Source of the DNA: a virus
IMG/VR virus record: IMGVR_UViG_3300033141_001736
Span: 1-54,256 of that record
Length of the DNA stretch: 54,256 nucleotides
Reading direction: 5' to 3' (one strand)
Positions 4,758 to 24,605 of the stretch are shown here, piece after piece. Under the pieces are notes generated by a model that did no database searches, was not told the origin of the DNA, and worked only from the letters and a program-made list of their open reading frames with translations. Position numbers and translations under genes: made by a program. Position 1 is the first letter of the stretch. Every line of letters starts with the position of its first letter.

Positions 4758-4784
4758 AATCGTCCTCCTTGTCGCTATTGCCCA

Positions 4785-7432: not shown

Positions 7433-7433
7433 C

Positions 7434-7913: not shown

Positions 7914-7927
7914 TGTGTCCTCTCATT

Positions 7928-8146: not shown

Positions 8147-8242
8147 CTGCTTTTCTCCTTCCTAAGAGACGAATGCGCCGACCTGCCGCCTAGCCGCGGG
8201 AAAGGAGCCGACGCTGCGCACAAGACGAAAGGAGGTGGCGGC

Positions 8243-8299: not shown

Positions 8300-8498
8300 C
8301 CCATCCTTCCACTTCGCCATAGCGGATGGGCACAATGCGAAAGGGCCTCAATCCCTCGACCTTCACCCATTGGTAACTGCCGGTCACTTCGCAGATTTCG
8401 CCTGAGCGGGCGACGGCGATTACCTCTGCCGTGATAGGGTCGTCTGTATTGAAAATCTGGACCTCAGCGCCCAATGGGTGATAGAAGTACATCCTCAT
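8268..8498 (-). CDS. hypothetical SH3-like protein
   Basis: 76 residues from ATG 8498, overlapping the upstream stop as ATGA. Alternating beta pattern throughout (EVIAVARSGEICEVTGSYQWVKVEGL...EGWVNRKWL) resembles bacterial SH3-type folds, where GWVN..WL is a frequent ending. Role unknown. Confidence 0.6.
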   Translation of the reverse strand: MRMYFYHPLGAEVQIFNTDDPITAEVIAVARSGEICEVTGSYQWVKVEGLRPFRIVPIRYGEVEGWVNRKWLRSRR

Positions 8499-9765: not shown

Positions 9766-9766
9766 G

Positions 9767-10702: not shown

Positions 10703-10704
10703 AT

Positions 10705-11247: not shown

Positions 11248-11250
11248 GGC

Positions 11251-11445
11251 CTAGCTCCAAAACTCGGTATTGATGCGTATGTCGGGCCACCTCTGGTGGA
11301 GTCTTCGCAAGCGTTCCTCATTCTCCAAAAGCCATAAGGTGTACTGGAGGTTTTGATGGCCTGCTCCCCCTCTGAACCTAGCTACTGTCTTCGGCCTTTT
11401 CCCCGGCCTCTCCAGCGTGACGATAAGGGTCGATGACGTGCCCAT
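11251..11445 (-). CDS. hypothetical small basic protein
   Basis: 64 residues from ATG 11445 with AAGGAGAGTTCA upstream. Basic, with a Trp/Leu-rich helix (LQYTLWLLENEERLRRLHQRW). Overlaps the preceding zinc-protein gene by 68 nt in another frame. Function unknown. Confidence 0.5.
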   Translation of the reverse strand: MGTSSTLIVTLERPGKRPKTVARFRGGAGHQNLQYTLWLLENEERLRRLHQRWPDIRINTEFWS

Positions 11446-11584
11446 TGAACTCTCCTTGTGCTATCAGGAGCGTATGTTTTTCGCAGAGCCATTTGCGCCA
11501 ACCGCTTTCTAGAATGACCTCGAACTGTGCCATCCTTGGGCAGCCGGGGTCCTGGCAGTTCAGCACCAGCCTTTTGATAATCAC
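11378..11584 (-). CDS. small zinc-binding protein
   Basis: 68 residues from GTG 11584, overlapping the upstream stop as GTGA. The pattern NCQDPGCPRMAQFEV...WLCEKH suggests a single zinc site, a layout shared with the 3917-4114 product. Unknown function. Confidence 0.6.
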   Translation of the reverse strand: MIIKRLVLNCQDPGCPRMAQFEVILESGWRKWLCEKHTLLIAQGEFNGHVIDPYRHAGEAGEKAEDSS

Positions 11585-11829
11585 CTATCTCTCAGCCTTT
11601 CTTCCCAGTAATCCTGCGATAGCCTTCCGCGTGGAGGCCCGCCGATTGCCAGAGGATGCTTTCGTGGCCGGTAGCACGCATGATGGATATATCGGGTTCC
11701 CCAACGCGTATGGATAGGAACTATGCGGTCGCTTATTTGATAATCTCCACCGCATACACAGCACTTGCCCTCGTACTTTGAGCGAAAACCCCTGGCTCTT
11801 ATCGTCATCCTTCTCTCTGTTTCTCCCAT
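11581..11829 (-). CDS. zinc-ribbon protein, first gene of second leftward transcript
   Basis: 82 residues from ATG 11829, preceded by AAGGAGGAGGACAAAC. CCVCGGDYQISDRIVPI...IHHACY is a classic small zinc-ribbon layout for phage nucleic-acid-binding proteins. It lies about 490 nt downstream of the leftward promoter at 12316-12344. Confidence 0.65.
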   Translation of the reverse strand: MGETERRMTIRARGFRSKYEGKCCVCGGDYQISDRIVPIHTRWGTRYIHHACYRPRKHPLAIGGPPRGRLSQDYWEERLRDR

Positions 11830-11936
11830 GTTTGTCCTCCTCCTTCGCTCTTGGCTTTCCTTGCTCTTTTTTGGTCCTATCCTTTTTGCCCCATCCTTTT
11901 TTTGAGGTTTCCTTCTGGTTCTTGTGGTGTCACAGT

Positions 11937-11955
11937 ACGCCCATCAACTGGGCGT
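11937..11955. promoter_or_regulatory. short inverted repeat, possible operator or leader hairpin
   Basis: ACGCCCA, loop TCAAC, TGGGCGT: perfect 7-bp arms. It lies in the leader about 110 nt before the 11829 start. Not followed by a T run, so not a typical terminator. Confidence 0.35.
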
Positions 11956-12206
11956 GAAAGTGAAGAGAGAGGCTGTCACTTTGTACCTATCGGGGGGGAG
12001 AATTACACACCCGCCTCCCCAGGCCCGTTATCCCGATAGCTTTACGGGCGCGCGATGTAGTCGGTGATGGAAGTTGCGGGTTTCGGCGCTCATCCCTATT
12101 GCCACAAGAGCCTACGTGGGCCAAGCGGAGTTTCGAGCCCTGGGTTTATTGCGTGGCTATGCTGCTCGCCCCTATCCCTGCTGTTATACCCGACCCAAAA
12201 GCACAA

Positions 12207-12230
12207 GACCCGTGGCATGTGCCGCGGGTC
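12207..12230 (-). terminator. GC-rich hairpin, weak leftward terminator
   Basis: Arms GACCCGTGGCA (12207-12217) and TGCCGCGGGTC (12220-12230) pair over 11 positions with one G-T. On the leftward strand it is followed by TTGTGCTTTT. It lies downstream of the leftward promoter, so it could attenuate. Confidence 0.35.
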
Positions 12231-12315
12231 GGCTTCATAACGCTGCTATTGCACTCGGGGTCTCCGGGGGTCGCCATTGTTTCATCTTGACAATAACTGT
12301 CCTATTTATGGCTCA

Positions 12316-12344
12316 ATTATAATATGAGTTACTCCTTTTCACAA
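12316..12344 (-). promoter_or_regulatory. leftward sigma-70-like promoter
   Basis: On the - strand TTGTGA (12344-12339), a 17-nt spacer, then TATAAT (12321-12316). A perfect -10, near-consensus -35 and ideal spacing. It would drive 11829 and all genes to the left edge. Confidence 0.6.
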
Positions 12345-12417
12345 GCGAAACGATATGCTATAATTCAGATGTCCTCTCCTTTCTCTTTGGTGGCTGACCG
12401 GAGCGAAAGGAAGAAGA

Positions 12418-12468
12418 GAGCCTCCCTTGCTGTCCGATAACTCGGGGTTCGCGGGGTTCGGGAGGCTC
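12418..12468. terminator. inverted repeat after the DUF932-like gene
   Basis: GAGCCTCCC (12418-12426) and GGGAGGCTC (12460-12468), perfect 9-bp arms with a 33-nt loop. It starts 11 nt past the stop of the leftward gene at 12479 and could end that transcript. It could also end a short + strand RNA. Confidence 0.45.
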
Positions 12469-12478
12469 CCTTCATTTC

Positions 12479-13549
12479 TCAGTCCGCTATGTAGATGTCT
12501 CCAACTCCTTGCTCAACCAGCCGACCGGCCAGGATTTCAAGGGTTGCCGTCTGGTCGGGCCTATCGAGGTTTCTCGCAGCAAAAGAAGCGTCGTTCACAA
12601 AATCGTACAGGGTGTACTTTTCTCGCTCTGCCGCATGAACATTCACCATCTGCTGCCATGCCTCTTTCGATGAGACGAGCAGCCCATACTTGGAGGCCCA
12701 TGTCTCAACTAGGTCGCCCAGACGCTGCTTCTTCAAGCTGACCGTTTGGGTCTCGATGAACTTCTGCGCCGCCTCTTCGGACAAGCGGAAGGCATTGACA
12801 ATCGCCTCAGAAACCTTCAGGGCCATCTCCGCCTCCGAGTACCACCTGTGGATGACGCGGAAGTGTTCTGAGTTTTTCCATCCGAAGATTACGCCATTGT
12901 CGCAATAGGACCGATAGGTACCGGGGCCGATGCTTACACCCATAGTGCCTATCTCGCTGTTTCCGATATACACCGCGGGGTGCAGCCCCCCGTTTCCTCC
13001 GCCATCGGCAGAGCCGGGGTCGGGCCGATGCCTACCGAAGTCAATCTCATCTATCACGAGGTAGGCGCGCATCTCATCCCCCCATTGGCGGACGAGGACA
13101 TTGGGCTTGATGCCGCTTGTCTCTACTGCGTCGCGGAGAGCGCGAGCGAACTGGTCGTGGTTGTATGGCCGATACTCCGATGACAGGACGGCGCGGGTTG
13201 CCAGGGTATCCCCTTTATCGCGCATCCTAATCATCCATTCGGCATGGGTGTTCCGCAGCTTCCAATCCGCCACCATCTGCCGCAGAGGGTTGGGGCATCT
13301 CTCGTCGTCAAAGAGCCAGTCTCCAGGAACCGCGAGGCGGCCAGCGAATTGCAACTGTGCGTGCCGCGTCATGAGCGTTTCCGTTTTGGGCCCTGCGGCA
13401 TTGAAGAGGGCCTCGGCGTTGCCCTTGATGGGCACATGCAGGGCTGCGGGGGATTGAAAATCTACTTCCTCCAGGCTCGCAACTGCGTCGAAGTTATCCT
13501 TCGCCCACTCTGCTGCCTGCTCTACGAACTGGTCCATTGTGAGTTTCAT
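12479..13549 (-). CDS. DUF932-like phage protein
   Basis: 356 residues from ATG 13549 (AAAGGAGAGGACCA upstream; longer frames overlap the upstream gene). The core matches the DUF932 type: RAVLSSEYRPYNHDQFARAL, GIKPNVLVRQWGDEMRAYLVID, then GGGNGGLHPAVYIGNSEIGTMGVSI and CDNGVIFG. These proteins are widespread in phages and plasmids. Their function is not settled; a role in recombination or anti-defence is often guessed from neighbourhood. Here it lies beside the ERF gene. Confidence 0.75.
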   Translation of the reverse strand: MKLTMDQFVEQAAEWAKDNFDAVASLEEVDFQSPAALHVPIKGNAEALFNAAGPKTETLMTRHAQLQFAGRLAVPGDWLFDDERCPNPLRQMVADWKLRNTHAEWMIRMRDKGDTLATRAVLSSEYRPYNHDQFARALRDAVETSGIKPNVLVRQWGDEMRAYLVIDEIDFGRHRPDPGSADGGGNGGLHPAVYIGNSEIGTMGVSIGPGTYRSYCDNGVIFGWKNSEHFRVIHRWYSEAEMALKVSEAIVNAFRLSEEAAQKFIETQTVSLKKQRLGDLVETWASKYGLLVSSKEAWQQMVNVHAAEREKYTLYDFVNDASFAARNLDRPDQTATLEILAGRLVEQGVGDIYIAD

Positions 13550-13574
13550 TGGTCCTCTCCTTTCTCTGCGCGAG

Positions 13575-13829
13575 TTATGAATTGACAATCTCCTCAAGGG
13601 CCCGGAAAACTGCCCGAGGAATCTTGTACTTTGGCAGGTTGATTTTCAGGCAGCCTTGTCGAACGTAGTAAGCTGCCATAGGCTCAGAGATGCCCATGAC
13701 ACGGGCTATCTCCCAGGCGGGGTAACCTCGGGAGGCCCATTTCAGGGCCTCCTTCTCTTCAGCCTTCAACCTGCTGTAATCGCGAAACGGGTCCTGGAGC
13801 AATTCTTTTATCCTTTGGACTTTGCCCAT
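13575..13829 (-). CDS. helix-turn-helix regulator
   Basis: 84 residues from ATG 13829 (AGGAGG, 7-nt spacer). A single HTH fills the protein: LKAEEKEALKWASRGYPAWEIARVMGISEPMAAYYVRQGCLK, like LuxR C-terminal or sigma region 4 domains. Candidate transcription regulator of the leftward operon. The upstream gene's last codons (GGA GGC) form its SD. Confidence 0.7.
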   Translation of the reverse strand: MGKVQRIKELLQDPFRDYSRLKAEEKEALKWASRGYPAWEIARVMGISEPMAAYYVRQGCLKINLPKYKIPRAVFRALEEIVNS

Positions 13830-13832
13830 ACA

Positions 13833-14648
13833 CTAGCCTCCTAACGCTTCTGCGGCCTTATCGAGAAACTTTCCATACGCCTCGTTCACGCGCTTGGCGT
13901 ACTCCTCGGGCTTTTCGTCCTTGTACTTTTCTCGGCCGGACACCCATGCCATGACATAGGCAACGCCATCGATGGTATCAAGTTCCCCGAATGGCACGGT
14001 CTCAAAGAAAGCCGAGTGATTGAGAATGTTCACGGCGTGGGGCCTCGATTGGACCAGTTGCAGGTCCAGGATAGCATCAAGGACCTCCGGCTCCCATTGA
14101 TTGACCACTCTCTGAGCGGCCTTTCCCGTTTTCTTCTTCGGCTTCTTCTTGGGCGGAGGCTCCATGCCTCGCTCCTCTGCGACCCTGGTCACTACGGCCT
14201 CGAAGTCTTCCGATGATTGATAATCCGGGTCGTCGCCGGTTTCAATCATCAAGGTCTGCCGCCAATTGTACTTGGCCGCGATGGTCATGGCCTTGTTTGC
14301 GGCTTTGTCGCCGTAGTCCGTTCCTTCGCCCAAGGTCTGCGTTTGCAACTTCGTTTGGGAAGGCGTATGCATCCACTCCCAGGTGAAGCGGCAAAGCACC
14401 CTCTGCGCAACCGAACCGCGTTTCGTCTCGTACCTGCTGACCTCAATCTCTTCGATTGCGACGGGATAGCAGATAATCCCGAGGTCAATCATGTGAGGCC
14501 GAACGGCACGGATGAAGGCCGGTTCGCTGGCAAAGGTGTAGGGCAAGTCTCCGCTCTCTTCTTTCTGAACGTAGCCGACCCTTGCCCAAAGGAAGTTCAA
14601 GGCTTCATAGATGTTCTGCGGTTCGGGGACTTCTTTTGTTTCTGGCAT
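13833..14648 (-). CDS. ERF-family single-strand annealing recombinase
   Basis: 271 residues from ATG 14648 (TAGGAGGAAGGA upstream). ERF hallmarks: IYEALNFLWARVGYVQKE near the N-terminus, then LGEGTDYGDKAANKAMTIAAKYNWRQTLMIETGDDPD at about 105-145. A Lys-rich linker (PPPKKKPKKKTGK) leads to a C-terminal helical domain. It anneals complementary single strands and likely partners the RecB/Cas4-like nuclease at 5375-6244 and the Hjc-like protein at 6847-7134. Confidence 0.85.
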   Translation of the reverse strand: MPETKEVPEPQNIYEALNFLWARVGYVQKEESGDLPYTFASEPAFIRAVRPHMIDLGIICYPVAIEEIEVSRYETKRGSVAQRVLCRFTWEWMHTPSQTKLQTQTLGEGTDYGDKAANKAMTIAAKYNWRQTLMIETGDDPDYQSSEDFEAVVTRVAEERGMEPPPKKKPKKKTGKAAQRVVNQWEPEVLDAILDLQLVQSRPHAVNILNHSAFFETVPFGELDTIDGVAYVMAWVSGREKYKDEKPEEYAKRVNEAYGKFLDKAAEALGG

Positions 14649-14657
14649 TCCTTCCTC

Positions 14658-14693
14658 CTATTGATAATGTCTTCGGTTTGCAGGTATTGGCAT
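14658..14693 (-). CDS. 11-codon minigene MPIPANRRHYQ
   Basis: ATG 14693 follows AAAGGAGGGCA. Eleven codons end in TAG, which is part of the SD of the ERF gene (TAGGAGGAAGGAATG). Same architecture as the minigene at 2830-2862, including the MPI start. It could be a translational coupler or leader peptide for the ERF gene. Confidence 0.4.
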   Translation of the reverse strand: MPIPANRRHYQ

Positions 14694-14707
14694 TGCCCTC
14701 CTTTCAT

Positions 14708-14932
14708 CTAATAGACAGTGAAGTACTTCATCACGGTTTGCAACAGATGGTCGTAATCGCCCTCCGTCGCCTCTTTGGTAAACTCCTCGGAAATGGTAGC
14801 GGCCATACTCTTTGGAAGAACGCCCTTGCGAGCGGCGTTTCTTATCGCGCGTCGGCATCTGCCGATGATGCCAAAGGCATTGCCATCCTCTCCTAAGAGC
14901 TTTACTTCGACATCCGGATACAGCGGTTCCAT
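14708..14932 (-). CDS. conserved small phage protein
   Basis: 74 residues from ATG 14932 (AAAGGAGAGGACACA). The pattern VKLLGEDGNAFGIIGRCRRAIRNA...EATEGDYDHLLQTVMKYF is a small family I associate with phage early regions, with no known role. Confidence 0.7.
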   Translation of the reverse strand: MEPLYPDVEVKLLGEDGNAFGIIGRCRRAIRNAARKGVLPKSMAATISEEFTKEATEGDYDHLLQTVMKYFTVY

Positions 14933-14946
14933 TGTGTCCTCTCCTT

Positions 14947-15255
14947 TCAGTCAATGAACGTTCCGCAGGATTGACAATAGGCTTCGATGCCCGTGGCGGT
15001 GACGCGCACTTCTATGGGTTCCAGGTCGTCACACATGGGGCAGAAGTCCATCGCGTATGTTGGGTTCTGCTCGGCCGCCGTTTGGAGCAAGCGCAGGAAC
15101 TCATGCCTTATATCAGAGGCATGAATGGGATGCTCTTGGTATGCCAGCCTCCAAAGAAGCTTCAAAGCAGCCTGAGTACTCTCGGCTTCTTGATAATTGT
15201 CTTTCGGTTTGCGCTTGGCAAGCATATTTAGGTGTGCGTTGGTTTCTCGTATCAT
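14947..15255 (-). CDS. hypothetical zinc-ribbon protein
   Basis: 102 residues from ATG 15255 (GGAGAGGGTGA). N-terminal helical region, then CPMC (72-75) and CQSC (93-96) in a compact ribbon. Unknown function, probable nucleic-acid binding. Confidence 0.65.
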   Translation of the reverse strand: MIRETNAHLNMLAKRKPKDNYQEAESTQAALKLLWRLAYQEHPIHASDIRHEFLRLLQTAAEQNPTYAMDFCPMCDDLEPIEVRVTATGIEAYCQSCGTFID

Positions 15256-15267
15256 TCACCCTCTCCT

Positions 15268-15486
15268 TCATTGCTGCTGGCTGAAACGGATGACGAATTC
15301 AGCAACGGGTGGCGCGTCCCAATCGCCGATGCTGACAACCTTGCCGCAAACACCACAATGGCGGTGCCGTTCTTGGATGCCGCAGGGACAGTCCGGCTCA
15401 GCTTTTATCCACGGCTTTTCTGTATGCGTTAGGTCTGGCATGTGGTCTGCCCATTCGGGTGATAGCGGCGGCAAATCGTCATTCAT
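15268..15486 (-). CDS. small zinc-binding protein
   Basis: 72 residues from ATG 15486, which overlaps the upstream stop. Cys/His cluster CPCGIQERHRHCGVCGKV in the middle. Acidic N-terminus. Unknown function. Confidence 0.6.
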   Translation of the reverse strand: MNDDLPPLSPEWADHMPDLTHTEKPWIKAEPDCPCGIQERHRHCGVCGKVVSIGDWDAPPVAEFVIRFSQQQ

Positions 15487-15658
15487 CCGTCTCCTCCTTC
15501 TGGTAGCAAACCTCTGTGGCCTCTTTGATATACATGCGCACGCCCTTGAACTCCATGTATTTGCCGGGCTTCTCGGCGTGGATGTAGATATAGATGCGCG
15601 GCTTCTCGCTGAACAGCATTCGGCGAAGATAGGGTTTGGAGCAGACAGGGCATGTCAT
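15479..15658 (-). CDS. 59-residue CxxC protein
   Basis: ATG 15658 follows AAGGAGAGGCGCA. The product begins MTCPVCSKPY and ends EETDE. Tyr/Ile-rich middle (RIYIYIHAEKPGKYMEFKGVRMYI) is likely beta. A third Cys near the end may complete a zinc site. Its last codons (GGAGGAGACGGATGAATGA) contain the SD, stop and start of the next gene, which it overlaps by 8 nt. Confidence 0.6.
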   Translation of the reverse strand: MTCPVCSKPYLRRMLFSEKPRIYIYIHAEKPGKYMEFKGVRMYIKEATEVCYQKEETDE

Positions 15659-15671
15659 TGCGCCTCTCCTT

Positions 15672-16190
15672 TTATGGCTTCGCGCAGGTCACTTGATATG
15701 TTTCTTTTGTGACCTTTTTGATTTCGCAGCCAGGCGCAGGCCATGAGGAGCGGAATTTGACGACGACTTTCATGCCATCCCATTCACCGAGGCCCTCGTA
15801 CACGGCCCTGGGCGGCCGAGCGGTCTCCCAATCGCGCTCTGTCCACTCGGGCCTGGGATGTTTGAAAATCATCTTGAAGAAGCGCATCAAACCCGCCAGT
15901 ATTTCTTTGTCTTCTTCCTCTTTCCAGAGGTAGAAAGGCTCCGAGACAAGCTCGATTTGGATGTAGCGCGGATGGTCAGGCGGACTGATGCCATCATCTT
16001 CGCTCCAGCGGACGGAGCAACCAATAACGCGGTCAAAGCTAATCGGTAATTCTTCCGGCAAGGGCTCATGTTCCAGAGCCAATGCCACTCGATGTTTGAT
16101 GGCCCTGATCTGTTTCGCGTAGTTGATCGACGAACGGTACTGCTTTTCAGCATCATCGTATAGTTCTTGTGCATCTTCATTCCAGAACAT
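15672..16190 (-). CDS. hypothetical protein
   Basis: 172 residues from ATG 16190 (AAAGGAGAGGCAAAG). Helical N-terminus (AQELYDDAEKQYRSSINYAKQIRAIKHRVALAL), then an acidic, Trp-rich region. No family recognised. The palindrome at 16218-16235 lies 28 nt upstream of the start. Confidence 0.65.
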   Translation of the reverse strand: MFWNEDAQELYDDAEKQYRSSINYAKQIRAIKHRVALALEHEPLPEELPISFDRVIGCSVRWSEDDGISPPDHPRYIQIELVSEPFYLWKEEEDKEILAGLMRFFKMIFKHPRPEWTERDWETARPPRAVYEGLGEWDGMKVVVKFRSSWPAPGCEIKKVTKETYQVTCAKP

Positions 16191-16217
16191 CTTTGCCTCT
16201 CCTTTCTTCTGCGGCGC

Positions 16218-16235
16218 CACTTTAATATTAAAGTG
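16218..16235. promoter_or_regulatory. palindrome CACTTTAATATTAAAGTG, copy 2
   Basis: Perfect 18-bp palindrome in the gap between two leftward genes. The inner 16 bp equal copy 1 at 10161-10176. AT-rich in a GC-rich context. Candidate operator or ParB site. Confidence 0.45.
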
Positions 16236-16254
16236 CGCAATCTATCCCTCAGTC

Positions 16255-16497
16255 TCAATGAGGTTTTGTTCTCCCAGGTTGGGTGTCGAAGAAGGCGGCG
16301 ACATCTTGGAGCATTCGCTTCTCGTTCGCTTTCGAGTAATGGGCCACGCCAATCTTAGAAGATAAGTTGTCTGCCCCGTAGTAGCGGACGAAGAAGTAAG
16401 ACGCGCTCGCCAAGATGCGAACCTTGCCAACCTTGCTCTTGTGGTCTATGGTCAGGATGCCGTTTTTGTCGTAGCGGCGGATGAGGGCGTCGTTCAT
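16255..16497 (-). CDS. hypothetical protein
   Basis: 80 residues from ATG 16497, overlapping the upstream stop as ATGA. Pattern IRRYDKNGILTIDHKSKVGKVRILASASYFFVRYYGAD is beta-rich. Unknown function. Confidence 0.55.
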   Translation of the reverse strand: MNDALIRRYDKNGILTIDHKSKVGKVRILASASYFFVRYYGADNLSSKIGVAHYSKANEKRMLQDVAAFFDTQPGRTKPH

Positions 16498-16676
16498 AGT
16501 TCCGCCTCGTCCAGCACTTTGACTTCAACGCAATCTTGACAATAGGGATGGCTGCCGTTGTCCTCCGGCAGCCAAATCGTGCGGTCATCTGCGGGGTCCA
16601 TGAGCCAACCGCATTTGGTGCAAGCAACGGGTTCAAAGACCCGCAGCCCCTCTCGGATTGCTTCTTGCTTCGTCAT
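16494..16676 (-). CDS. zinc-ribbon small protein
   Basis: 60 residues from ATG 16676 (AAAGGAGAGGACG). CTKC and CQDC pairs separated by about 25 residues form a ribbon. Unknown function. Confidence 0.6.
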   Translation of the reverse strand: MTKQEAIREGLRVFEPVACTKCGWLMDPADDRTIWLPEDNGSHPYCQDCVEVKVLDEAEL

Positions 16677-16697
16677 CGTCCTCTCCTTTCTTGATAA

Positions 16698-16937
16698 TCA
16701 GCTTACATCTTCCCAGTCGCCCTTTTCGATGAGGGCGCCGTCATCAGTCCTTCCCAGGAACTTGCGGCGTAGCCGGAAGTCCTCGGGACTGATATGCCAT
16801 TGGGGTTTGGCGGCGATGTATTCTTTCAACATCTGGTCCGCCACCTGCCGGACCCAAGCATCCTCATCGCTTGGGCCGACGGCGTATGCCCTTGGCGCGT
16901 CCTCTTCGAAGTAGGCATACAACACTTGCGTCTCCAT
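16698..16937 (-). CDS. hypothetical acidic protein
   Basis: 79 residues from ATG 16937, chosen for AAAGGAGAGGAAC directly upstream. An in-frame TTG at 16976 would add 13 residues but lacks an SD. Acidic, Trp-containing; no motif recognised. Confidence 0.55.
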   Translation of the reverse strand: METQVLYAYFEEDAPRAYAVGPSDEDAWVRQVADQMLKEYIAAKPQWHISPEDFRLRRKFLGRTDDGALIEKGDWEDVS

Positions 16938-16983
16938 GTTCCTCTCCTTTCTACGCAGCGGATTGATAATCGGCAAGCCTACA

Positions 16984-17020
16984 TTCCAGGGCCCTCGGGC
17001 GCGACCCGAAAACCCTGGAA
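16984..17020. other. nested intercistronic hairpin
   Basis: Arms TTCCAGGG (16984-16991) and CCCTGGAA (17013-17020) enclose a second stem TCGGG/CCCGA. No T run follows on either strand. One of three nested hairpins between genes in this part of the arm. Confidence 0.5.
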
Positions 17021-17042
17021 CGGGGGCTTGCGCCCCTCGCTC

Positions 17043-17222
17043 TTATATGCTGCCCAACACTAGGAAGGGCGATTTGTGGCCGTGGGGACAGGTGCCATCC
17101 AACTCGACCATGCAACCGTCGGCCACTTCGATGACCCCATCCTCCACAGCATCTTCGAAGTCCGCGAATGAAAATGTCAATGCCCATTCGAGGTCTTCAT
17201 CCTGGGTGATTTCATCGAGCAT
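17043..17222 (-). CDS. conserved small phage protein, CPHGH type
   Basis: 59 residues from ATG 17222 (AAAGGAGAGCAAAG). Ends with ADGCMVELDGTCPHGHKSPF and VLGSI, a signature of small phage proteins. Two Cys and two His suggest zinc binding. No known function. Confidence 0.7.
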   Translation of the reverse strand: MLDEITQDEDLEWALTFSFADFEDAVEDGVIEVADGCMVELDGTCPHGHKSPFLVLGSI

Positions 17223-17238
17223 CTTTGCTCTCCTTTCC

Positions 17239-17601
17239 TTATGCGGGGCCGCCGTGCTTTTCTATCAGGCGGTTCATCTTTTCGGTCGGTACGTATGCGC
17301 AGATGTAAGGGACATTCCGCTCCTTTTCTTTTCCGAAAACAGCCTTTAGGTAATCGAGCAGGCGAGGCGGCCCTTCGGAGTTGACAACATACTTACGAAG
17401 GGCGAACGGTGGCAACCTATAGAAGCCGACCTCGACGCCTCCGTAAGGTCCAAAGTTGCGTCTCGGGGAGCAGTAGTGCATCTCGGATGCCTGTATCGAA
17501 AAGATAGTCCCATCTTTGCAGCGGAAGGGCTTGCAAAGCCGCCCGCATCGCTTGCGCATAGTCCGGGGGTTCACCAGATGTTCGTTCACGTAGTCCTTCA
17601 T
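17239..17601 (-). CDS. hypothetical protein
   Basis: 120 residues from ATG 17601 (AAAGGAGATGGCA), overlapping the upstream stop as ATGA. Contains RCGRLCKPFRC and SEMHYCSPRRNFGPYGGVEVGFYRL. Mixed beta content. Unknown. Confidence 0.6.
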   Translation of the reverse strand: MKDYVNEHLVNPRTMRKRCGRLCKPFRCKDGTIFSIQASEMHYCSPRRNFGPYGGVEVGFYRLPPFALRKYVVNSEGPPRLLDYLKAVFGKEKERNVPYICAYVPTEKMNRLIEKHGGPA

Positions 17602-17819
17602 TGCCATCTCCTTTCTACTGGGTAAATCTCGACCTCGGCCCTGCCATGGTCCTGAAGACGCCATTCGCTGACCCATCGCTCGTTCAGCCGTTCCAGGCGG
17701 CGCATGCTCGCATCGGTGATGCCTGCGTATGTCCTGGGTGGCTTCCACTCTCGATGGACCTCGGCGTTCCAGCCATAGAGGACGTAAAGCCTTATCTTAC
17801 GAACGGGTGAGGTCTTCAT
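17598..17819 (-). CDS. hypothetical basic protein
   Basis: 73 residues from ATG 17819 (or the tandem ATG 17822); AAAGGAG is 7 nt from the former. Pattern IRLYVLYGWNAEVHREWKPPRTYAGITDASMRRLERLNERW. No family recognised. Confidence 0.55.
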   Translation of the reverse strand: MKTSPVRKIRLYVLYGWNAEVHREWKPPRTYAGITDASMRRLERLNERWVSEWRLQDHGRAEVEIYPVERRWQ

Positions 17820-17836
17820 CATGCGGCTCCTTTCGC

Positions 17837-17893
17837 ATTGAATGGCCACTCCCGACCCCAAGCCATCACTTGGGGGCGGGGTCGCTATTCAAT
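17837..17893. repeat. intercistronic hairpin element, copy 1
   Basis: Outer arms ATTGAAT (17837-17843) and ATTCAAT (17887-17893), inner GACCCCAAG/CTTGGGG..GGGGTC. It starts at the stop codon of the leftward gene 17889-18065 and ends just before CGAAAGGAG of the next gene. Same plan and partly the same sequence as 19224-19278. Confidence 0.55.
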
Positions 17894-18065
17894 TGATTTT
17901 GGTGATGGTCAGCGGGATGTAGTGCGGGCGGCCTTCATCCTTGGCAGCATCCTTCTTGAGGATGATGGCGCACTTTTCACACACCCTCAGGTGCTGGCCG
18001 TCCGTGTGGACGATGAACTTTGCCGCAGGCACCTTGCCGCGACCGAAGTGAACTTGGCACTTCAT
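17889..18065 (-). CDS. 58-residue zinc-binding protein
   Basis: ATG 18065 follows GGAAGGAGCCAAGA and overlaps the upstream stop. MKCQVHFGRGKVPAAKF...RVCEKCAIILKKDA has three Cys and a His fit for one zinc. Basic. Unknown role. Its TGA lies inside the hairpin element 17837-17893. Confidence 0.6.
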   Translation of the reverse strand: MKCQVHFGRGKVPAAKFIVHTDGQHLRVCEKCAIILKKDAAKDEGRPHYIPLTITKIN

Positions 18066-18319
18066 TCTTGGCTCCTTCCGATGTTTGCCATCCGGGCGAG
18101 GGCAATCAAGTTGGCCAGATTGAATGTCTCGCTTCGGCCCGTGTTCTCGTTCACCAGGACCATAAACGCCTCATGCCCGAGGCCAGCGTTATCGAGTTTC
18201 TCGCCCCAAACGCCGACCAGAATTACCGGCGGCTCGTGCATGTTATCGGCGCAGCCTTGGGTGACTTCGAGCAATCGCTTTTGACAATCTTGGAGCAATT
18301 CCTTTTCGTAGTCCCTCAT
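18062..18319 (-). CDS. hypothetical protein
   Basis: 85 residues from ATG 18319 (GGAG ATATAACA). Central beta segment EPPVILVGVWGEKLDN...AFMVLVNENTGRSETF. No family recognised. The SD is encoded by the LEI terminus of the upstream gene. Confidence 0.6.
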   Translation of the reverse strand: MRDYEKELLQDCQKRLLEVTQGCADNMHEPPVILVGVWGEKLDNAGLGHEAFMVLVNENTGRSETFNLANLIALARMANIGRSQE

Positions 18320-18321
18320 TG

Positions 18322-18636
18322 TTATATCTCCAGTCGTTTGCTTGCGGTCAAGGCGGCAATGTCGTTCGGGTTCAGGATGTCAATGGTCGTAGGTGTGACC
18401 AAGAGCCAATGCGGCCATTGCCGGACCAGCTTGAACTTGTCGTCCAAGACTAGAGCGGGCCGCTCAGCAACGTAAGGCCCACTACTGGGTGTTCCTTCGC
18501 ACCCGTAGTACTGGGTCTTCGGCTCGCCTTCGCGTGCCACCTTTCGGGCGAGCATCTCCACCCGAACCTCGCGGGGGACCTTTCGGGGCCTAAGGGCCTC
18601 GGCCAGCATGTTGGCGTCATTGAGTGGATTGCGCAT
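18322..18636 (-). CDS. hypothetical protein
   Basis: 104 residues from ATG 18636, which lies inside the 3' end of the upstream gene after GGAGAAGACG. Basic N-terminal helix, then a beta-rich C-terminus (HWLLVTPTTIDILNPNDIAAL). Unknown. Confidence 0.55.
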   Translation of the reverse strand: MRNPLNDANMLAEALRPRKVPREVRVEMLARKVAREGEPKTQYYGCEGTPSSGPYVAERPALVLDDKFKLVRQWPHWLLVTPTTIDILNPNDIAALTASKRLEI

Positions 18637-18829
18637 CGTCTTCTCCTATCTCCAGGGCTTCTACTTTGCTCAGAGCCTTCCGGACTACTTCGCGCTTGGT
18701 GGGCAGAACGCCTTGCTCAGGGATGATGCAAACGTCTTTGCCCTCCTCGTCGAACACTTCTGCGTACCAACCGCAGTCATCCTCCGAATAAACTGCTGTG
18801 AAGTAAAGGTGGCGTTTCCTCTTAGGCAT
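18617..18829 (-). CDS. HicB-like small protein
   Basis: 70 residues from ATG 18829 (AAGGAGAGGACG). KRHLYFTAVYSEDDCGWYAEVFDEEGKDV resembles the beta sheet of HicB/antitoxin-like folds. There is no HicA partner beside it. It contains the SD and start of the next gene in codons for GEDDA. Confidence 0.45.
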   Translation of the reverse strand: MPKRKRHLYFTAVYSEDDCGWYAEVFDEEGKDVCIIPEQGVLPTKREVVRKALSKVEALEIGEDDAQSTQ

Positions 18830-19205
18830 CGTCCTCTCCTTGCTGTTCCGGCTTGAAGTTGATTGTGTGCCATGCAATACTGTGCATCTCATCAACGGTC
18901 CGTCGAAGGTCTCGGAACGAGAACGGAGCGTTGACTCGCTTCCGAATGTCTATCAGGGAATTGACAATCTCCCTGACAACTATGCTATCCCGCCTAGTAG
19001 TTAGCATGTCGCTGATGGTCTCCAGGTCGCGGATGGCATTGGCGCATATGGAGCGAACCAACTTGCGGGTATCTTCGAAGAAATAGCCAATCTCGTTGTC
19101 CTTGACCTCCTCGATTTCGAACATACGCTTCTGGACCTTTGTTATCTCCTCGCTGAACCTCTTGCCGACTGCATTGATTTCGGGGCCTACGTTCTTGCTT
19201 TCCAT
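18822..19205 (-). CDS. hypothetical helical protein
   Basis: 127 residues from ATG 19205 (AAAGGAGAGGACG). Mostly helical with heptad-like spacing (RFSEEITKVQKRMFEIEEVKDNEIGYFFEDTRKLVRSI). Its end, GEDDA, encodes the SD and overlaps the next start. Function unknown. Confidence 0.6.
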   Translation of the reverse strand: MESKNVGPEINAVGKRFSEEITKVQKRMFEIEEVKDNEIGYFFEDTRKLVRSICANAIRDLETISDMLTTRRDSIVVREIVNSLIDIRKRVNAPFSFRDLRRTVDEMHSIAWHTINFKPEQQGEDDA

Positions 19206-19223
19206 CGTCCTCTCCTTTCGTCT

Positions 19224-19278
19224 ATTGAATAGCCGCTCCCGGCCCCGACTGATGTCGGGAACGGGGTCAGTATTCAAT
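19224..19278. repeat. intercistronic hairpin element, copy 2
   Basis: Outer arms ATTGAATA (19224-19231) and TATTCAAT (19271-19278), inner CCGAC/GTCGG and CCCC/GGGG. It lies between the stop of 19278-19529 and the SD of 18822-19205. Same plan as 17837-17893. Confidence 0.55.
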
Positions 19279-19529
19279 TAGAGGTTCCAGCCGCCTCGGT
19301 CAAACGCAAGGCAAAATGTCTTGCCCGATTGGGTGCAACGGAAGGTAACTTCGCCTTCTGGCGGCGACGGGTCGCTCATTGGCTCCTTGCCATCATTCAA
19401 CTCGAAGGGGAAGAACGCGTCGTAGAATGCGTCATTTCCACTCAGGCACATAATGTTTGCGGGAGCCCCGCACTTGGGGCATGAGTGGTCCTCGAGCAGT
19501 CTGGCGATGACTTCTTCTACGGCCAACAT
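19278..19529 (-). CDS. zinc-binding protein, first gene of the leftward operon
   Basis: 83 residues from ATG 19529 (GGAAGGAGATTAGAAA). CPKCGAPANIMC near the N-terminus and CTQSGKTFC near the end give four Cys. First coding gene after the 550-nt leader that starts at the 20094-20122 promoter. Confidence 0.65.
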   Translation of the reverse strand: MLAVEEVIARLLEDHSCPKCGAPANIMCLSGNDAFYDAFFPFELNDGKEPMSDPSPPEGEVTFRCTQSGKTFCLAFDRGGWNL

Positions 19530-19567
19530 TTTCTAATCTCCTTCCTGTGCGCATTGGACGGACATTT

Positions 19568-19597
19568 GGCTAGCGGAACTATGCCGCTCCGCTAGCC
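19568..19597. promoter_or_regulatory. perfect 10-bp hairpin in leftward leader
   Basis: GGCTAGCGGA (19568-19577), 10-nt loop, TCCGCTAGCC (19588-19597). It lies about 40 nt before the 19529 start. Without a T run it is more likely an RNA stabiliser or part of the leader fold than a terminator. Confidence 0.5.
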
Positions 19598-19657
19598 CAT
19601 ATCTCAGTCCAATTCCAGCATGGGGTCTATGGGTGCCTCCCAAAAGCACCAGCAGGT

Positions 19658-19731
19658 CCGGTCCCAACGGCTGACGACCTACTCCCTTGCTCTTCAAATG
19701 GCAAGCCCGGTCCCAACGGCTGACGACCTAC
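19658..19731. repeat. 25-bp direct repeat, two copies 49 bp apart
   Basis: Identical 25-mers beginning CCGGTCCCAACGGCTGACG at 19658-19682 and 19707-19731. AAATGG and CCATTT flank the second copy. Period 49 is not a multiple of three, so it is not a protein repeat. Could be an operator pair, an RNA duplication or a replication iteron. Confidence 0.6.
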
Positions 19732-20093
19732 CATTTAAAAGAACAACTCCTTTACGGAGCCATGTGGTTTTGCCTCCACGCTTCGCATGAACGCTTCCGA
19801 TGTGCCTAGGGGCCTATCCGCTGGCTGCCCGCCTGTTAGGCACACCGCCGTAGAGGATGCGGTTGTTCGGTCCCTCTACGCTTCTCCTTCTAACCCTCGG
19901 ATTTACGGAGCCGACCTCCGGGCTTTCCGACTGCTTGCAATCCTCCCCACTCCAACCCCTCACCGGATACCCCGTACTAGCGGCCCCGGGCTTGGCGTTG
20001 GCAGTTCGGACACTCGGGCAATCGTTCCACCCTTCAGTTCTGCCACTCCTACCTCGGTTGTAAAGGTGCCTCTTTCCTTGTTCCTTTATAAAG

Positions 20094-20122
20094 ATTATAA
20101 TGGAAAGTTATAAAAAGTTCAA
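20094..20122 (-). promoter_or_regulatory. main leftward promoter
   Basis: On the - strand TTGAAC (20122-20117), 17-nt spacer, TATAAT (20099-20094). A strong sigma-70-type match in an AT-rich patch. It would transcribe the leader and the left arm. Confidence 0.7.
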
Positions 20123-20166
20123 GTGATTGCCGGGCCGCCGATTGGGCAATTGGGTCTCTATTAGTG

Positions 20167-20195
20167 TTGCATCCACGTCGTATTCGGTGTATATT
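20167..20195 (+). promoter_or_regulatory. main rightward promoter
   Basis: TTGCAT (20167-20172), 17-nt spacer, TATATT (20190-20195), about 40 nt before the first rightward gene. Divergent from the leftward promoter, with -35 boxes 45 nt apart. Confidence 0.6.
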
Positions 20196-20237
20196 GCCCC
20201 TGTATCCACCATGTAATTTCAAGGAGTTGGTATCCCG

Positions 20238-20834
20238 GTGAATGAGATTTGGAAGAATCGCATTGTTGGCCAGGGCGAGATTGACCCTGAGCAATTGTTA
20301 GCGAACCCGAGGAACTGGCGAATCCATCCGGAGGCGCAGCAAGAGGCGCTCCAAGGTTCTTTAGAGGAGGTTGGGTGGGTGGACGAAGTTACCGTCAACA
20401 AACGAACGGGCTTCGTCATTGATGGTCACTTGCGTGTCGCTTTGGCGCTCCGGCATAACCAAAAGAAGGTGCCCGTCAAGTATGTGGACCTGAGCGAAGA
20501 AGAAGAAATGCTTATACTGATGACGCTCGACCCTATTACGGGCATGGCGGTCATGGACGCCGAGAAGATGCAAGTATTGATAAACGAGGTTGCAATCGAG
20601 GATGAAAGGCTTGGCGAAATACTAACCGAATTAAAGGACGAGATGGAGGCGAGGCTTTTTCAAACACCCACCCTCGATGAGCTTGAAGCGGAATATGGCG
20701 AACTCGAGGACGAAGAATTGTGGCCAATTCTGCGCTTCAAAGTAAGCCCCGAAGTTTATGCTATGTTCATGGACCGCTATGATAAAGCCCCCGGCGATTC
20801 GCCTTCCGAGAAAATCGCTGCCATGCTGAAATGA
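20238..20834 (+). CDS. ParB/sulfiredoxin-fold protein, probable DpdB-like partner
   Basis: 198 residues from GTG 20238 (AAGGAG 11 nt upstream). ParB-type N-terminal domain: QLLANPRNWRIHPEAQQEALQGSLEEVGWVDEVTVNKRTGFVIDGHLRVALAL, where the usual GHRR box is GHLR. The C-terminal half is helical. It overlaps the TGT-like gene as ATGA. ParB-like proteins (DpdB) act together with DpdA in inserting preQ0 into DNA, so this pairing suggests the same job. Generic ParB-like nucleases of phages are the alternative. Confidence 0.7.
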   Translation: MNEIWKNRIVGQGEIDPEQLLANPRNWRIHPEAQQEALQGSLEEVGWVDEVTVNKRTGFVIDGHLRVALALRHNQKKVPVKYVDLSEEEEMLILMTLDPITGMAVMDAEKMQVLINEVAIEDERLGEILTELKDEMEARLFQTPTLDELEAEYGELEDEELWPILRFKVSPEVYAMFMDRYDKAPGDSPSEKIAAMLK

Positions 20835-21700
20835 AGCTATATCTCGCTTCTATTCCATACACAGCAAAAGTGTTGCTCGCCAATACTGGGCGGCCCTATA
20901 ATTTTCTGTTCTCGTTCTATCATTTCATAAACGAAGATATTGCCGAGTTGCAGCAAACATACTTTCCAGAAGGTTTTCGCCTTTTCGCTGATAGCGGGGC
21001 GTTCTCCGCCTGGACACTGGGCCTAGAGATTGACATTGATGCCTACATTGCGTGGCTACATAAATGGAACCGCTTCTTTGATTGCTATGCCAATCTCGAT
21101 GTGCGGGGCGACCTGAAGGGAACAAAAGAAAATCAGCGCATTCTCGAAGAGGCGGGCCTGGAGCCATTGCCTGTATATCATGCAGGCGAGCCTTTTGCCT
21201 ACTTTGAGGAGTTGATTGAAAAGTACGACTACATTGCACTTGGCGGCGTTGCTGGAAAGCATCTGCGCGGGACATCATTGATGCGTTGGTTGATAAGATG
21301 CTTTCGGGCGGTTGAAGGAAAACCCGTCGCGCTGCATGGTTTTGGTATGACAGCTTGGACTTTGCTGAAGTCTTTTCCCTGGTACTCGGTGGATAGCACG
21401 TCGTGGGCAACGGGTAATCGCTACGGAACTGTGCAAATCTTCGATGATGAGCTTGGTTGTTGGTACAGTTTCCATTGTTCCAACAAAAGAAAAATCTACA
21501 CCTATGGGAGGTATTTGCGAAAACTCGGCATAGACCCAAAAGTGTTCGTAGAAGCAAACGACCAGGCGATAAAGAATCGTTTCTTGGCGATAATCGGCGC
21601 AAGGTCCTATCAAGTGGCCGCCCGGTGGCTTACGGAGAAATGGGCACATGCTCAAATTCATCAACCAACTTACGGAATTGGCCGAAAGGCTTGTGATTGA
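20831..21700 (+). CDS. TGT-fold DNA base-exchange enzyme, DpdA-like
   Basis: 289 residues. Resembles tRNA-guanine transglycosylases: FADSGAFSAW (D54, equivalent to the DSGG[FY]Q motif), NLDV, YDYIALGGVAG, and WYSVDSTSW with D188 at the place of the nucleophile. The C-terminal CxCxxC zinc site of tRNA TGTs is absent, as expected for the divergent DNA-acting DpdA group. It would replace guanine in DNA by a 7-deazaguanine base. Between the ParB-like gene (4-nt overlap) and queC (53-nt overlap). Confidence 0.75.
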   Translation: MKLYLASIPYTAKVLLANTGRPYNFLFSFYHFINEDIAELQQTYFPEGFRLFADSGAFSAWTLGLEIDIDAYIAWLHKWNRFFDCYANLDVRGDLKGTKENQRILEEAGLEPLPVYHAGEPFAYFEELIEKYDYIALGGVAGKHLRGTSLMRWLIRCFRAVEGKPVALHGFGMTAWTLLKSFPWYSVDSTSWATGNRYGTVQIFDDELGCWYSFHCSNKRKIYTYGRYLRKLGIDPKVFVEANDQAIKNRFLAIIGARSYQVAARWLTEKWAHAQIHQPTYGIGRKACD

Positions 21701-22514
21701 AAATCTTGACCCGCCACCTCTCTTGTTCTGGGAAGCCTTTTTGGAGGCGCTTGGCGAGCCGGAGTATCCGAAGATTGGTGTAACTCAGATACCTTGCGAG
21801 CCGAGAAACGTCGTGCTTGTTTCGGGTGGGCTTGATAGCACAATTGGATATTTCATGTGGCTTGCTCAGGGCAGGGAGCCTACTGGCCTGTATATCGATT
21901 TTGGGCAGAAATACAAAGAAGCAGAGCTCTATGCGATGCGCCAACTTGGCATCCACTTCGAGGAAGAAACCATTGCCCTTTCGGTTGAAAATCGCGTCGG
22001 GGAATGGGCGCACATCATTCCCGCGAGGAACATGATTGCCCTACTTCATGCCGCGCAAAAAGGAAGCAACGCAATCTTATTCTCTGTCGTAAATGGCGAA
22101 AGCCCACCGCGGGGAGGAGACAAAAGCGACCGTTTCATTACGCTCATGGACGATATGCTTCCTCAGCGCATCTACACGATGCGAGAACGAACGAAAGCTC
22201 AATGGGTGCGCTTCGCCATAGACCAGAAGATAATGACAATCGAGCAGCTGCTGAAGACATACTCGTGTTTTGAGGGAACTGTTGGTGTGCAATGCGGGCG
22301 TTGCCAATCTTGCTTGCGCAGGTACATAGCATTCGCCTACAACGATATTCCGGACGATGAAATTCTTTGGAACTACGAAGTTCATCCACTCGAAGGTTGT
22401 AAGGAGGCCATTGAGAAATACAGGAAGAAGATGAGAGTGGGAAATTGTCGTTACACAGCACAGCGAATAAAAGAAACGTTGGCCGTCATCGGAAAGGAAG
22501 ATGTCCATGCCTGA
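21648..22514 (+). CDS. queC: 7-cyano-7-deazaguanine synthase (QueC)
   Basis: 288 residues. PP-loop ATPase motif VVLVSGGLDSTIGYF (56-69) and zinc site C207-x8-C216-x2-C219-x2-C222 (CGRCQSC), both diagnostic. It converts 7-carboxy-7-deazaguanine to preQ0 with ATP and ammonia. About 50 residues longer at the N-terminus than bacterial QueC. It overlaps the TGT-like gene by 53 nt. FolE, QueD and QueE are not in the window, so the precursor must come from the host or elsewhere in the genome. Confidence 0.85.
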   Translation: MLKFINQLTELAERLVIENLDPPPLLFWEAFLEALGEPEYPKIGVTQIPCEPRNVVLVSGGLDSTIGYFMWLAQGREPTGLYIDFGQKYKEAELYAMRQLGIHFEEETIALSVENRVGEWAHIIPARNMIALLHAAQKGSNAILFSVVNGESPPRGGDKSDRFITLMDDMLPQRIYTMRERTKAQWVRFAIDQKIMTIEQLLKTYSCFEGTVGVQCGRCQSCLRRYIAFAYNDIPDDEILWNYEVHPLEGCKEAIEKYRKKMRVGNCRYTAQRIKETLAVIGKEDVHA

Positions 22515-23583
22515 GAAAGAAATTCGTGTCGCGGTTGTTGGTGTCGGTAACTGTGCAAGTGCGCTCATTCAGGGGCTGGAGTTCTACAAGGCCGTTGAGG
22601 CAGATGGCGAGATACCCGGCGTGATGCACCCAAATCTCGCCGGTTACTTCATCCGCCACATAAAAGTCGTGGCGGCATTCGATGTGGCCGCAACGAAGGT
22701 CGGGTATCCCTTGGCCGTAGCTATACATGCGCCACCAAACAATGCCATGCAATTTACCGATGTCCAAAGCGATGTGATTGTCCAGCGAGGGCCCTTGCTC
22801 GATGGCTTCGGCAAGTATCTGAAGGAGCGAGTACCGGTTTCATCGTTGGCCTCCGTCAATGTGACCGACGCCTTGAAAAAGGCGAGGGCGGAAATTGTGG
22901 TCAATTTCTGTCCTGTCGGCTCAGCGCAAGCCACCCGGTATTATGCCCAAGCGGCCCTTGATGCAGGCTGCGCGTTTATCAATTGCATACCCGAATTCAT
23001 CGCCAGCGACGAGGTTTGGGCGGCAAAATTCGAAGAGCGAGGCCTGCCCGTCATTGGGGATGATGTGAAGTCGCAACTTGGTGCCACCATCATTCATCGG
23101 GTCTTGTCGCGATTGTTTGTAAATCGAGGTGTCTGGCTGGACAGAACTTATCAATTGAATTTCGGTGGAAATGGCGATTTCCTCAACATGCTGGAGCGTA
23201 GCCGTTTGACCAGCAAGAAGATTAGCAAAACCCAGTCGGTCAACAGCATGTTGCCAGAGCATCTCGGGGAAGGGGAGATACACATCGGGCCATCTGATTA
23301 CGTGCCATTTCTGAAGGACCAGAAGAATTGCTACATCAGAATGGAGGGGCGTAACTTTGGGCATCAGCCGGTGACAATCGAACTGAAACTGGAGGTGCAG
23401 GATTCTCCCAATAGCGCCGGTGTTGTGATTGATGCAATTCGTTGTGCTAAACTGGCTTTAGACCGCGGCCTTGCCGGTGTTCTGATTGGCCCAAGTGCTT
23501 ATTTCATGAAGTCGCCACCAGAGCAGATGCCGGATTGGAAGGCATTTCGTAAGGTCGAGGAATTCATAAACGAAAGGAGGTGA
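22507..23583 (+). CDS. myo-inositol-1-phosphate synthase
   Basis: 358 residues from ATG 22507 (AAGGA 8 nt upstream; ATG 22501 is too close to the SD). Rossmann start VGVGNCASALIQGLEFY, then GYFIRHIKVVAAFDV, GDDVKSQLGATIIHRVLSRL, the family signature YQLNFGGNGDFLNMLERSRL and SKKISKTQ. This is the short actinobacterial/archaeal type that makes inositol-1-phosphate from glucose-6-phosphate with NAD. It overlaps queC by 8 nt, and its last codons AGG AGG form the SD for the next gene, so it is tied into the deazaguanine operon. Confidence 0.85.
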   Translation: MPEKEIRVAVVGVGNCASALIQGLEFYKAVEADGEIPGVMHPNLAGYFIRHIKVVAAFDVAATKVGYPLAVAIHAPPNNAMQFTDVQSDVIVQRGPLLDGFGKYLKERVPVSSLASVNVTDALKKARAEIVVNFCPVGSAQATRYYAQAALDAGCAFINCIPEFIASDEVWAAKFEERGLPVIGDDVKSQLGATIIHRVLSRLFVNRGVWLDRTYQLNFGGNGDFLNMLERSRLTSKKISKTQSVNSMLPEHLGEGEIHIGPSDYVPFLKDQKNCYIRMEGRNFGHQPVTIELKLEVQDSPNSAGVVIDAIRCAKLALDRGLAGVLIGPSAYFMKSPPEQMPDWKAFRKVEEFINERR

Positions 23584-23587
23584 TGAC

Positions 23588-23920
23588 TTGATAGAGACAA
23601 TTAAGAACGACGCGGGGCCAATCGCAATCCGCTACACGCCGGAATTTACTGCGATTTGCTCGGTCGGCAAGGCTCCCTTCTCTGGTGTTATGGAGATTGA
23701 GTACTTGGCCGACGACCTGCTCTTGGAGTTCCAGTCCTTTGAGATTTGGCTTCGGGAGCACGCCAACGCCGAGACAACTATCGAGGGCTTCTGCAAGATG
23801 GCTTTCGATGCGTTGACCGAGGCGCTTGGTGACATTCCTCTGGCCGTCACGGTGACGGCTACGACAACCGTACATGCGCCAGTTGAAGCGCGCATCGAAA
23901 GGAACTTTGAAAATGTCTAG
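23588..23920 (+). CDS. QueF-like tunnelling-fold enzyme, possibly amidinotransferase type
   Basis: 110 residues from TTG 23588 (AAAGGAGG, 7-nt spacer). TPEFTAICSVGKAPFSG places C24 as the QueF nucleophile, and TTIEGF gives E66 for base binding. The NADPH motif of true QueF, E(S/L)KShK, reads EFQSFEIW here (E47, both Lys lost). That fits the QueF-L branch, which turns preQ0 into archaeosine rather than reducing the nitrile. It is also shorter than single-domain QueF. Confidence 0.65.
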   Translation: MIETIKNDAGPIAIRYTPEFTAICSVGKAPFSGVMEIEYLADDLLLEFQSFEIWLREHANAETTIEGFCKMAFDALTEALGDIPLAVTVTATTTVHAPVEARIERNFENV

Positions 23921-24605
23921 GAAAAGCAGGAAGAACCGATTGCCCATTGCTTGGGCCGTAGTGGCATTGGTAGGAGGTTATATCTTCTGCCAGGCTCTTG
24001 CCGATGTTGCGGCTACCAAGATTGTGCAGATTGGCAATGTCACGATGCCTGCGGGCACGTTCGTCTTCGCCATCACATTCACGCTGCGAGACATGCTTCA
24101 CAAGCGTTTAGGGCGTGAATGGGCGCGCGCTGCCATCGTCATGGCGGGCGTTTTGAACCTCATCATGGCGGGTTATCTGTACTGGATGTCTCGCCTGCCC
24201 GCTCCCCCGTTCTATGGCTTGGCCGAAGCCTGGTCTAGCATCTTCGCCTTCGTGCCTGCCATCGTCCTGGGCTCTATCATCGCGGAGGTGGTCAGCGAGT
24301 GGGTTGATACGGACGTCTATCATGCCGTGGCCCGATACTTCAAAGGCCCGTGGCAGTTCATGAGGGTCATCATCTCCAACCTCGTCTCTTTGCCGCTGGA
24401 TAGCCTTATCTTCGGTGCTTTGGCATTCGTGTATCTGCCCGTAATCTTTGGCGCTGAACCTATGCCATTCGCCGCCGCCATGCACATCGTTGGGGGCCAA
24501 ATCATCTTCAAGGCCATTGTGACAGCGGTTTCTCTTCCGGGCATTTACTTGGTCAAAGAAGAACATCTTCTGACGACCGCATCTTTGCAGGAGGCCGGTA
24601 ACTGA
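23913..24605 (+). CDS. YhhQ/VUT family queuosine-precursor transporter
   Basis: 230 residues from ATG 23913 (AAGGAACTTTGAAA), 8-nt overlap with the QueF-like gene. About six membrane helices. The family core is NVTMPAGTFVFAITFTLRDMLHKRLGREWAR, plus a second half with EVVSEWVDTDVYH and FMRVIISNLVSLPLDSLIFGALAF. COG1738 members import preQ0 or preQ1. It would supply the base to the DpdA-like enzyme and supports a 7-deazaguanine function for the operon. Confidence 0.8.
   Translation: MSRKSRKNRLPIAWAVVALVGGYIFCQALADVAATKIVQIGNVTMPAGTFVFAITFTLRDMLHKRLGREWARAAIVMAGVLNLIMAGYLYWMSRLPAPPFYGLAEAWSSIFAFVPAIVLGSIIAEVVSEWVDTDVYHAVARYFKGPWQFMRVIISNLVSLPLDSLIFGALAFVYLPVIFGAEPMPFAAAMHIVGGQIIFKAIVTAVSLPGIYLVKEEHLLTTASLQEAGN

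Follow-up and report, generated by a model that had tools for sequence, protein, structure and literature searches.

A stretch of some 560 nt at the head of a leftward phage operon, behind a promoter and rich in predicted hairpins, raises the question of whether it is a free-standing large RNA or the start of the operon's messenger. It lies in the virus record IMGVR_UViG_3300033141_001736, of which positions 1 to 54,256 were analyzed (the window; 54,256 nt). A sequence-only reading had proposed a large structured RNA here, matching ROOL and GOLLD in placement and size. The evidence supports one part of that proposal, an untranslated leftward leader, about 560 nt long and rich in hairpins, that follows a good promoter; the resemblance to ROOL and GOLLD is not supported. 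The account that we favor, with about even confidence, is an untranslated cis-acting 5′ leader of the ERF/exonuclease/ParB operon, in which gene-start hairpins and the body of the leader would both act in cis.

The strong leftward promoter that had been described is present as a good TTGAAC-17-TATAAT on the minus strand. It is one of three sites with 10/12 consensus bases within positions 400-20300, where sites with at least 9/12 are about as frequent as in shuffled sequence (16 observed versus 11.0 ± 3.6 expected). From the promoter position, transcription would be expected to start near 20087. The operon is probably early, judging by its products, which include an ERF annealing protein, an exonuclease, a helix-turn-helix (HTH) ParB and many small proteins. 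The candidate terminator at 19763-19743 has 8 pairs, 3 of them G-C, which is within chance, and no terminator beyond chance was found between the leader and the first gene (19529-19278). Since the promoter points into the leader and no convincing terminator precedes the first gene, the body should belong to the operon messenger; for the same lack of a terminator, one long cis-acting messenger leader is the simplest reading.

The claim of about 560 nt lacking coding signal also holds. On a codon scale learned from this phage's confident genes, open reading frames in the leader scored −0.22 to +0.03 bits per codon, below the 0.21-0.42 of those genes, and no Pfam family exceeded the cut-off for leader open reading frames in any frame. 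A simple gene caller left only two gaps longer than 500 nt in the 54 kb, the leader and 11585-12478. In the second of these, 11830-12478 is a long stretch with no confidently called gene and carries back-to-back promoter-like sites (minus 12344-12316, plus 12336-12364); folding revealed no unusual structure in this promoter-headed gap over 11830-12330.

Features of the leader and its surroundings (positions in the window; stems, pairings and probabilities are from predicted folds)
Feature	Position	Strand	Remarks
Predicted sigma-70-type promoter, TTGAAC-17-TATAAT	20094..20122	minus	10/12 consensus bases
ParB-like gene, divergent from the leader	20238..20834	plus	conserved neighbor used for finding relatives
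Noncoding 5′ leader of the leftward operon, ~557 nt	19530..20087	minus	without coding signal; fold z −5.4
5′ domain, long irregular helix	19920..20032	minus	pair probability about 1; helices 20032-20029/19923-19920, 20024-20018/19934-19928, 20001-19997/19956-19952
GGCTCCGTAAA copy 2	19902..19912	minus	not in the hairpin context of copy 1
Hairpin, 9 bp, CGTAGAGGG/TCCTCTACG	19849..19880	minus	19880-19872/19857-19849; probability 0.97
Hairpin, 11 bp, CGGTGTGCCTA/TAGGCACATCG	19798..19847	minus	19847-19837/19808-19798; probability 0.95
Hairpin, 7 bp	19775..19791	minus	probability 0.99
GGCTCCGTAAA copy 1 (19761-19751)	19747..19761	minus	within hairpin CTCC-GTAAA-GGAG (19759-19747)
Hairpin A of twin repeat, 8 + 13 bp	19687..19746	minus	13 bp = 19737-19725/19707-19695
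Hairpin B of twin repeat, 8 bp	19651..19683	minus	19683-19676/19658-19651; loop identical to A
Gene-start hairpin E1, outer ATTGGAC/GTCCAAT, inner GGCTAGCGGA/TCCGCTAGCC	19553..19613	minus	z −7.0; stem 19597-19586/19579-19568, 12 bp, 10 perfect, probability at least 0.95
Shine-Dalgarno AAGGAG of first leftward gene	19538..19543	minus	sequence
First leftward-operon gene, 83 aa, CxxC motif	19278..19529	minus	no family above cut-off
Gene-start hairpin E2	19206..19277	minus	gap before gene 19205-18822; z −4.2
Gene-start hairpin E3, outer part in common with E2, inner stem different	17823..17888	minus	before gene 17598-17822; z −4.9
Gene-start hairpin E4	16938..17042	minus	before gene 16698-16937; z −4.9

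Folding stability of the leader is raised, with z scores of −5.4 (100 shuffles) and −3.7 in a control run (20 shuffles). The control comprised 39 windows of the same length from both strands of the same phage, with a mean of −0.66, a standard deviation of 1.5 and lowest values of −5.2 and −4.6. Among windows of its size, the leader thus ranks in roughly the top 5% and is not unique in this genome, since control windows reach −5.2 and several other windows of the phage fold as well. The signal is unevenly distributed: the last hairpin (E1, 61 nt) is the most stable part, the middle (19640-19884) is moderate at −3.4, and the 5′ part (19885-20087) is weak and not significant at −1.7. Part of the folding signal therefore comes from a gene-start hairpin, a type of element that this leader shares with other gene starts. 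For the body without that hairpin, the minus strand gave −3.0 to −3.1 and the plus strand 0.0 to +0.1, and stability confined to the minus strand speaks for RNA rather than for DNA symmetry. Because no homolog of the body was found, its structure rests on energy folding.

Within the body, the elements first noted from the sequence are real. Several stems of 8-13 bp, most of them perfect, are predicted with pair probabilities of at least 0.95, and GGCTCCGTAAA occurs twice, where simple arithmetic gives about 0.04 chance repeats of an 11-mer in 560 nt. The reported 25-bp direct repeat is present as 25 identical nucleotides in a row within a 31-nt repeat of 94% identity, the starts of the copies lying 49 nt apart. 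The two hairpins of this twin repeat, A and B, have an invariant 17-nt loop region, and their stems differ at three pairs (one changed on both sides, two on one side), with pairing kept in all three. This preserved pairing around an unchanged loop is suggestive only: the same pattern was matched by 253 of 500 shuffles and, with two copies, is statistically neutral. A covariance model of the twin hairpin, tried as a finder of relatives, recovered its own two copies and a next best hit at E 0.4.

The 3′ end of the leader is better understood as one member of a set, in that gene-start hairpins also precede at least three further leftward genes. The hairpins of the E1-E4 type are similar in layout, and a Shine-Dalgarno sequence follows each. 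E2 (TTGAATACTGACCCCG...CGGGAGCGGCTATTCAA) and E3 (TTGAATAGCGACCCCG...CGGGAGTGGCCATTCAA) share their outer parts, while their inner stems differ yet pair. E1 is unlike E2 and E3 in sequence and carries ATTGGAC/GTCCAAT at the place of ATTGAATA/TATTCAAT in E2. A clear gene-start hairpin was seen at only about four leftward genes of this phage. The closest described parallel is the ESAS of Cluster K mycobacteriophages (PMC3203893). The likeness is one of layout only, since in both cases an inverted repeat immediately precedes the translation start of some, but not all, genes; the ESAS share a 17-bp consensus, whereas the E1-E4 stems vary from gene to gene. A search of gene starts for the 13-bp SAS GGGATAGGAGCCC returned 2 matches with 2 mismatches, versus 1.4 expected by chance.

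Gene-start hairpins are far more regular in three relatives, the loci designated L005, L064 and L066, than in this phage: short same-strand gaps with z below −2.5 number 7 of 9, 7 of 8 and 8 of 8, respectively. An alignment of ten L005 leaders shows changes on both sides, with pairing kept, at 15 of 17 consensus pairs. Nothing else in the analysis speaks as strongly for selected RNA structure as these compensatory changes, but they concern the L005 gene-start element, not the body of the leader studied here. A model of that element found no match in the window, so the likeness between L005 and this phage is one of layout and not of sequence. The L005 genes concerned are ten consecutive leftward genes (704-4426, minus), each with a variable long stem upstream, and a small hairpin, GCTC-AACCG-GAGC, stands directly before the Shine-Dalgarno sequence in the gaps. 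In L064 (111-6219, minus) and L066 (821-5445, minus), a strong hairpin of differing sequence occupies nearly every leftward gap, often followed by a AACCAACCAA-like spacer and a Shine-Dalgarno sequence. Both loci also contain many GCCAGC repeats (L064 7240-7600, L066 6400-6960), which span the 3′ portion of a gene and continue into the noncoding sequence beside it.

The nearest terminase relatives (terminase relatives exist at 57-64% identity) also have the divergent ParB-like gene and lack the leader. At the corresponding place, L002 has only about 95 nt and L005 has 606 nt of noncoding, unrelated sequence; near the head of the leftward operon, L064 and L066 have 665 and 529 nt with no called genes, again unrelated in sequence and each behind one further leftward gene. 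The large leader of L064 also ends in a copy of an element from a later gap (71.6% over 81 nt). An argument had been made that so long a leader is costly in a compact phage. It is weak, because L005, L064 and L066 carry roughly 500-660 nt without called genes there, of unrelated sequence, and L002 only its short gap. In a further locus, L027, the divergent region at 2581-3000 contains several long near-perfect hairpins and has a fold z of about −11. The very stable noncoding regions of L027 and L064 have long palindromes within them and show no relationship to the leader.

Searches for the body itself identify it as an orphan among the phage, plasmid, IMG/VR and Chloroflexota sequences searched. 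The best blastn match to phages and plasmids was a 32-nt chance match; in about 140 loci from terminase and ParB relatives, nhmmer and blastn found no relative of the leader; the records of 19 relatives matched it over at most 28 nt; and the protein of the second leftward gene led to no relatives. Exact patterns (the duplicated loop, and CCGTAAAGGA plus the loop) had 0, 3, 5 and 7 matches in IMG/VR, all protein-coding. Among 400 genomes from the Chloroflexota, the phylum to which an Anaerolinea metagenome-assembled genome (MAG) belongs, none matched the leader, a search that shows little since it had no positive control. Rfam covariance models gave no match in the window at the gathering score and none in the leader region even at E ≤ 10, ROOL and GOLLD included; on ten other loci, the same models found only one tRNA, at an unrelated locus.

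The comparison with ROOL and GOLLD thus comes down to size and phage position. These RNAs have been resolved by cryo-EM, with one ROOL example of 659 nt (PMC12286853), and the leader is similarly a long, hairpin-rich, noncoding phage stretch of similar size. It differs in having neither a covariance match nor homologs and in a body that is probably part of a messenger. While ROOL and GOLLD are often, though not absolutely, near tRNA islands, the 54-kb window has no tRNA genes. Moreover, ROOL and GOLLD are marked by elaborate, covariation-supported structure and RNA-only cages, whereas the leader is known from its sequence and predicted folding. More generally, the case shows that an RNA cannot be assigned to ROOL or GOLLD just because its folding energy is low and its size suggestive. 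A different precedent is phage ICP1, which expresses an abundant noncoding RNA of about 800 nt with no assigned family and no tRNA genes nearby (PMC7567579). Both phages lack tRNA genes and have a large orf-less region beside the start of a gene cluster. The ICP1 RNA was seen by RNA-seq, whereas transcription of the leader is only predicted, and searching the phage collection gave no sequence match to the leader.

A large noncoding RNA in its own right, freed by processing at the gene-start hairpin or ahead of it and acting in trans or as a ROOL/GOLLD-like particle, would be consistent with the size, the phage context, the row of hairpins, the strand-specific stability and the ICP1 precedent. 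We consider it unlikely, given the empty Rfam search, the lack of a terminator beyond chance, the lack of homologs and a 5′ half without significant stability. RNA-based control of elongation is slightly less likely again. By this account, the leader would be an antiterminator or attenuator acting on RNA polymerase just past the promoter of an operon of about 20 kb, by analogy with the put RNAs of phage HK022, antiterminators that promote terminator readthrough in cis. Like them, the leader would form a structured RNA immediately behind the phage promoter of a long operon, and the weak terminator-like hairpin at 19763-19743 adjoins hairpin A, whose 5′ arm holds its U-rich tail. However, that hairpin is within chance, and the leader is much longer than such control needs; the put RNAs are far shorter.

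The remaining accounts treat the RNA fold as incidental, or assign a role to one short segment. The position between divergent gene blocks and the direct repeats 49 nt apart would suit a replication origin, a regulator-binding region or a similar DNA element, but strand-specific stability is unexpected for DNA palindromes, and the repeat has just two copies, both inside hairpin loops; we regard such an element as quite improbable. Marginally more improbable is decayed coding sequence or neutral filler between the two gene blocks. Relatives do hold anything from about 95 to about 660 nt of unrelated sequence there, and the stability is within the upper range of this genome; on the other side, no remnant of a protein family was found, the promoter stands directly at the start, and the twin hairpin has preserved both its loop and its pairing. 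The core of the twin hairpin could also pair as an antisense regulator with the translation starts at 28863 (plus), 52131 (plus) and 9268 (minus). A complement of 10-11 nt occurs at these 3 of 80 translation starts, and the same was seen in 0.6% of random segments, but the observation is post hoc and the duplex energy is not significant (P 0.08), making this very improbable.

Under the favored cis-acting leader, we infer transcription, processing, a binding partner and function as follows. The operon would be transcribed from promoter 20122-20094 through the leader. The gene-start hairpins would act in cis, protecting RNA ends and, from upstream, the ribosome-binding site, or might alternatively be processing sites; each gene would thereby have a stable, separately translatable leader. 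The body, about 445 nt in the same transcript, would be a promoter-proximal structure recognized either by RNA polymerase or by a protein that binds the duplicated loop; it could determine how stable the long operon's transcript is, or how it is processed or elongated. A bolder proposal, as doubtful in our view as the put-like one, is that the body is a discrete folded RNA of an undescribed large phage class, with a duplicated binding loop and cut at the gene-start hairpin, in a phage group with private hairpin leaders at many gene starts. Should the cis-acting leader indeed control the operon, it would show, beyond the model phages that are well studied, how a phage's recombination genes can be headed by a long and structured messenger leader. 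Private hairpins for individual genes, together with the strong compensatory change in a relative, offer a concrete and testable system for how phages set stability and translation gene by gene.

The terminase family occurs in 8 of the 400 genomes of the phylum mentioned above, and one terminase relative lies in the Anaerolinea MAG itself; this distribution is at most a hint about hosts. On the plus strand, genes resembling a phage tRNA-guanine transglycosylase, QueC and a Vut_1/YhhQ-type transporter are clustered at 20831-24605. This group is a probable 7-deazaguanine DNA modification cluster, and a myo-inositol-1-phosphate synthase gene lies among its genes.
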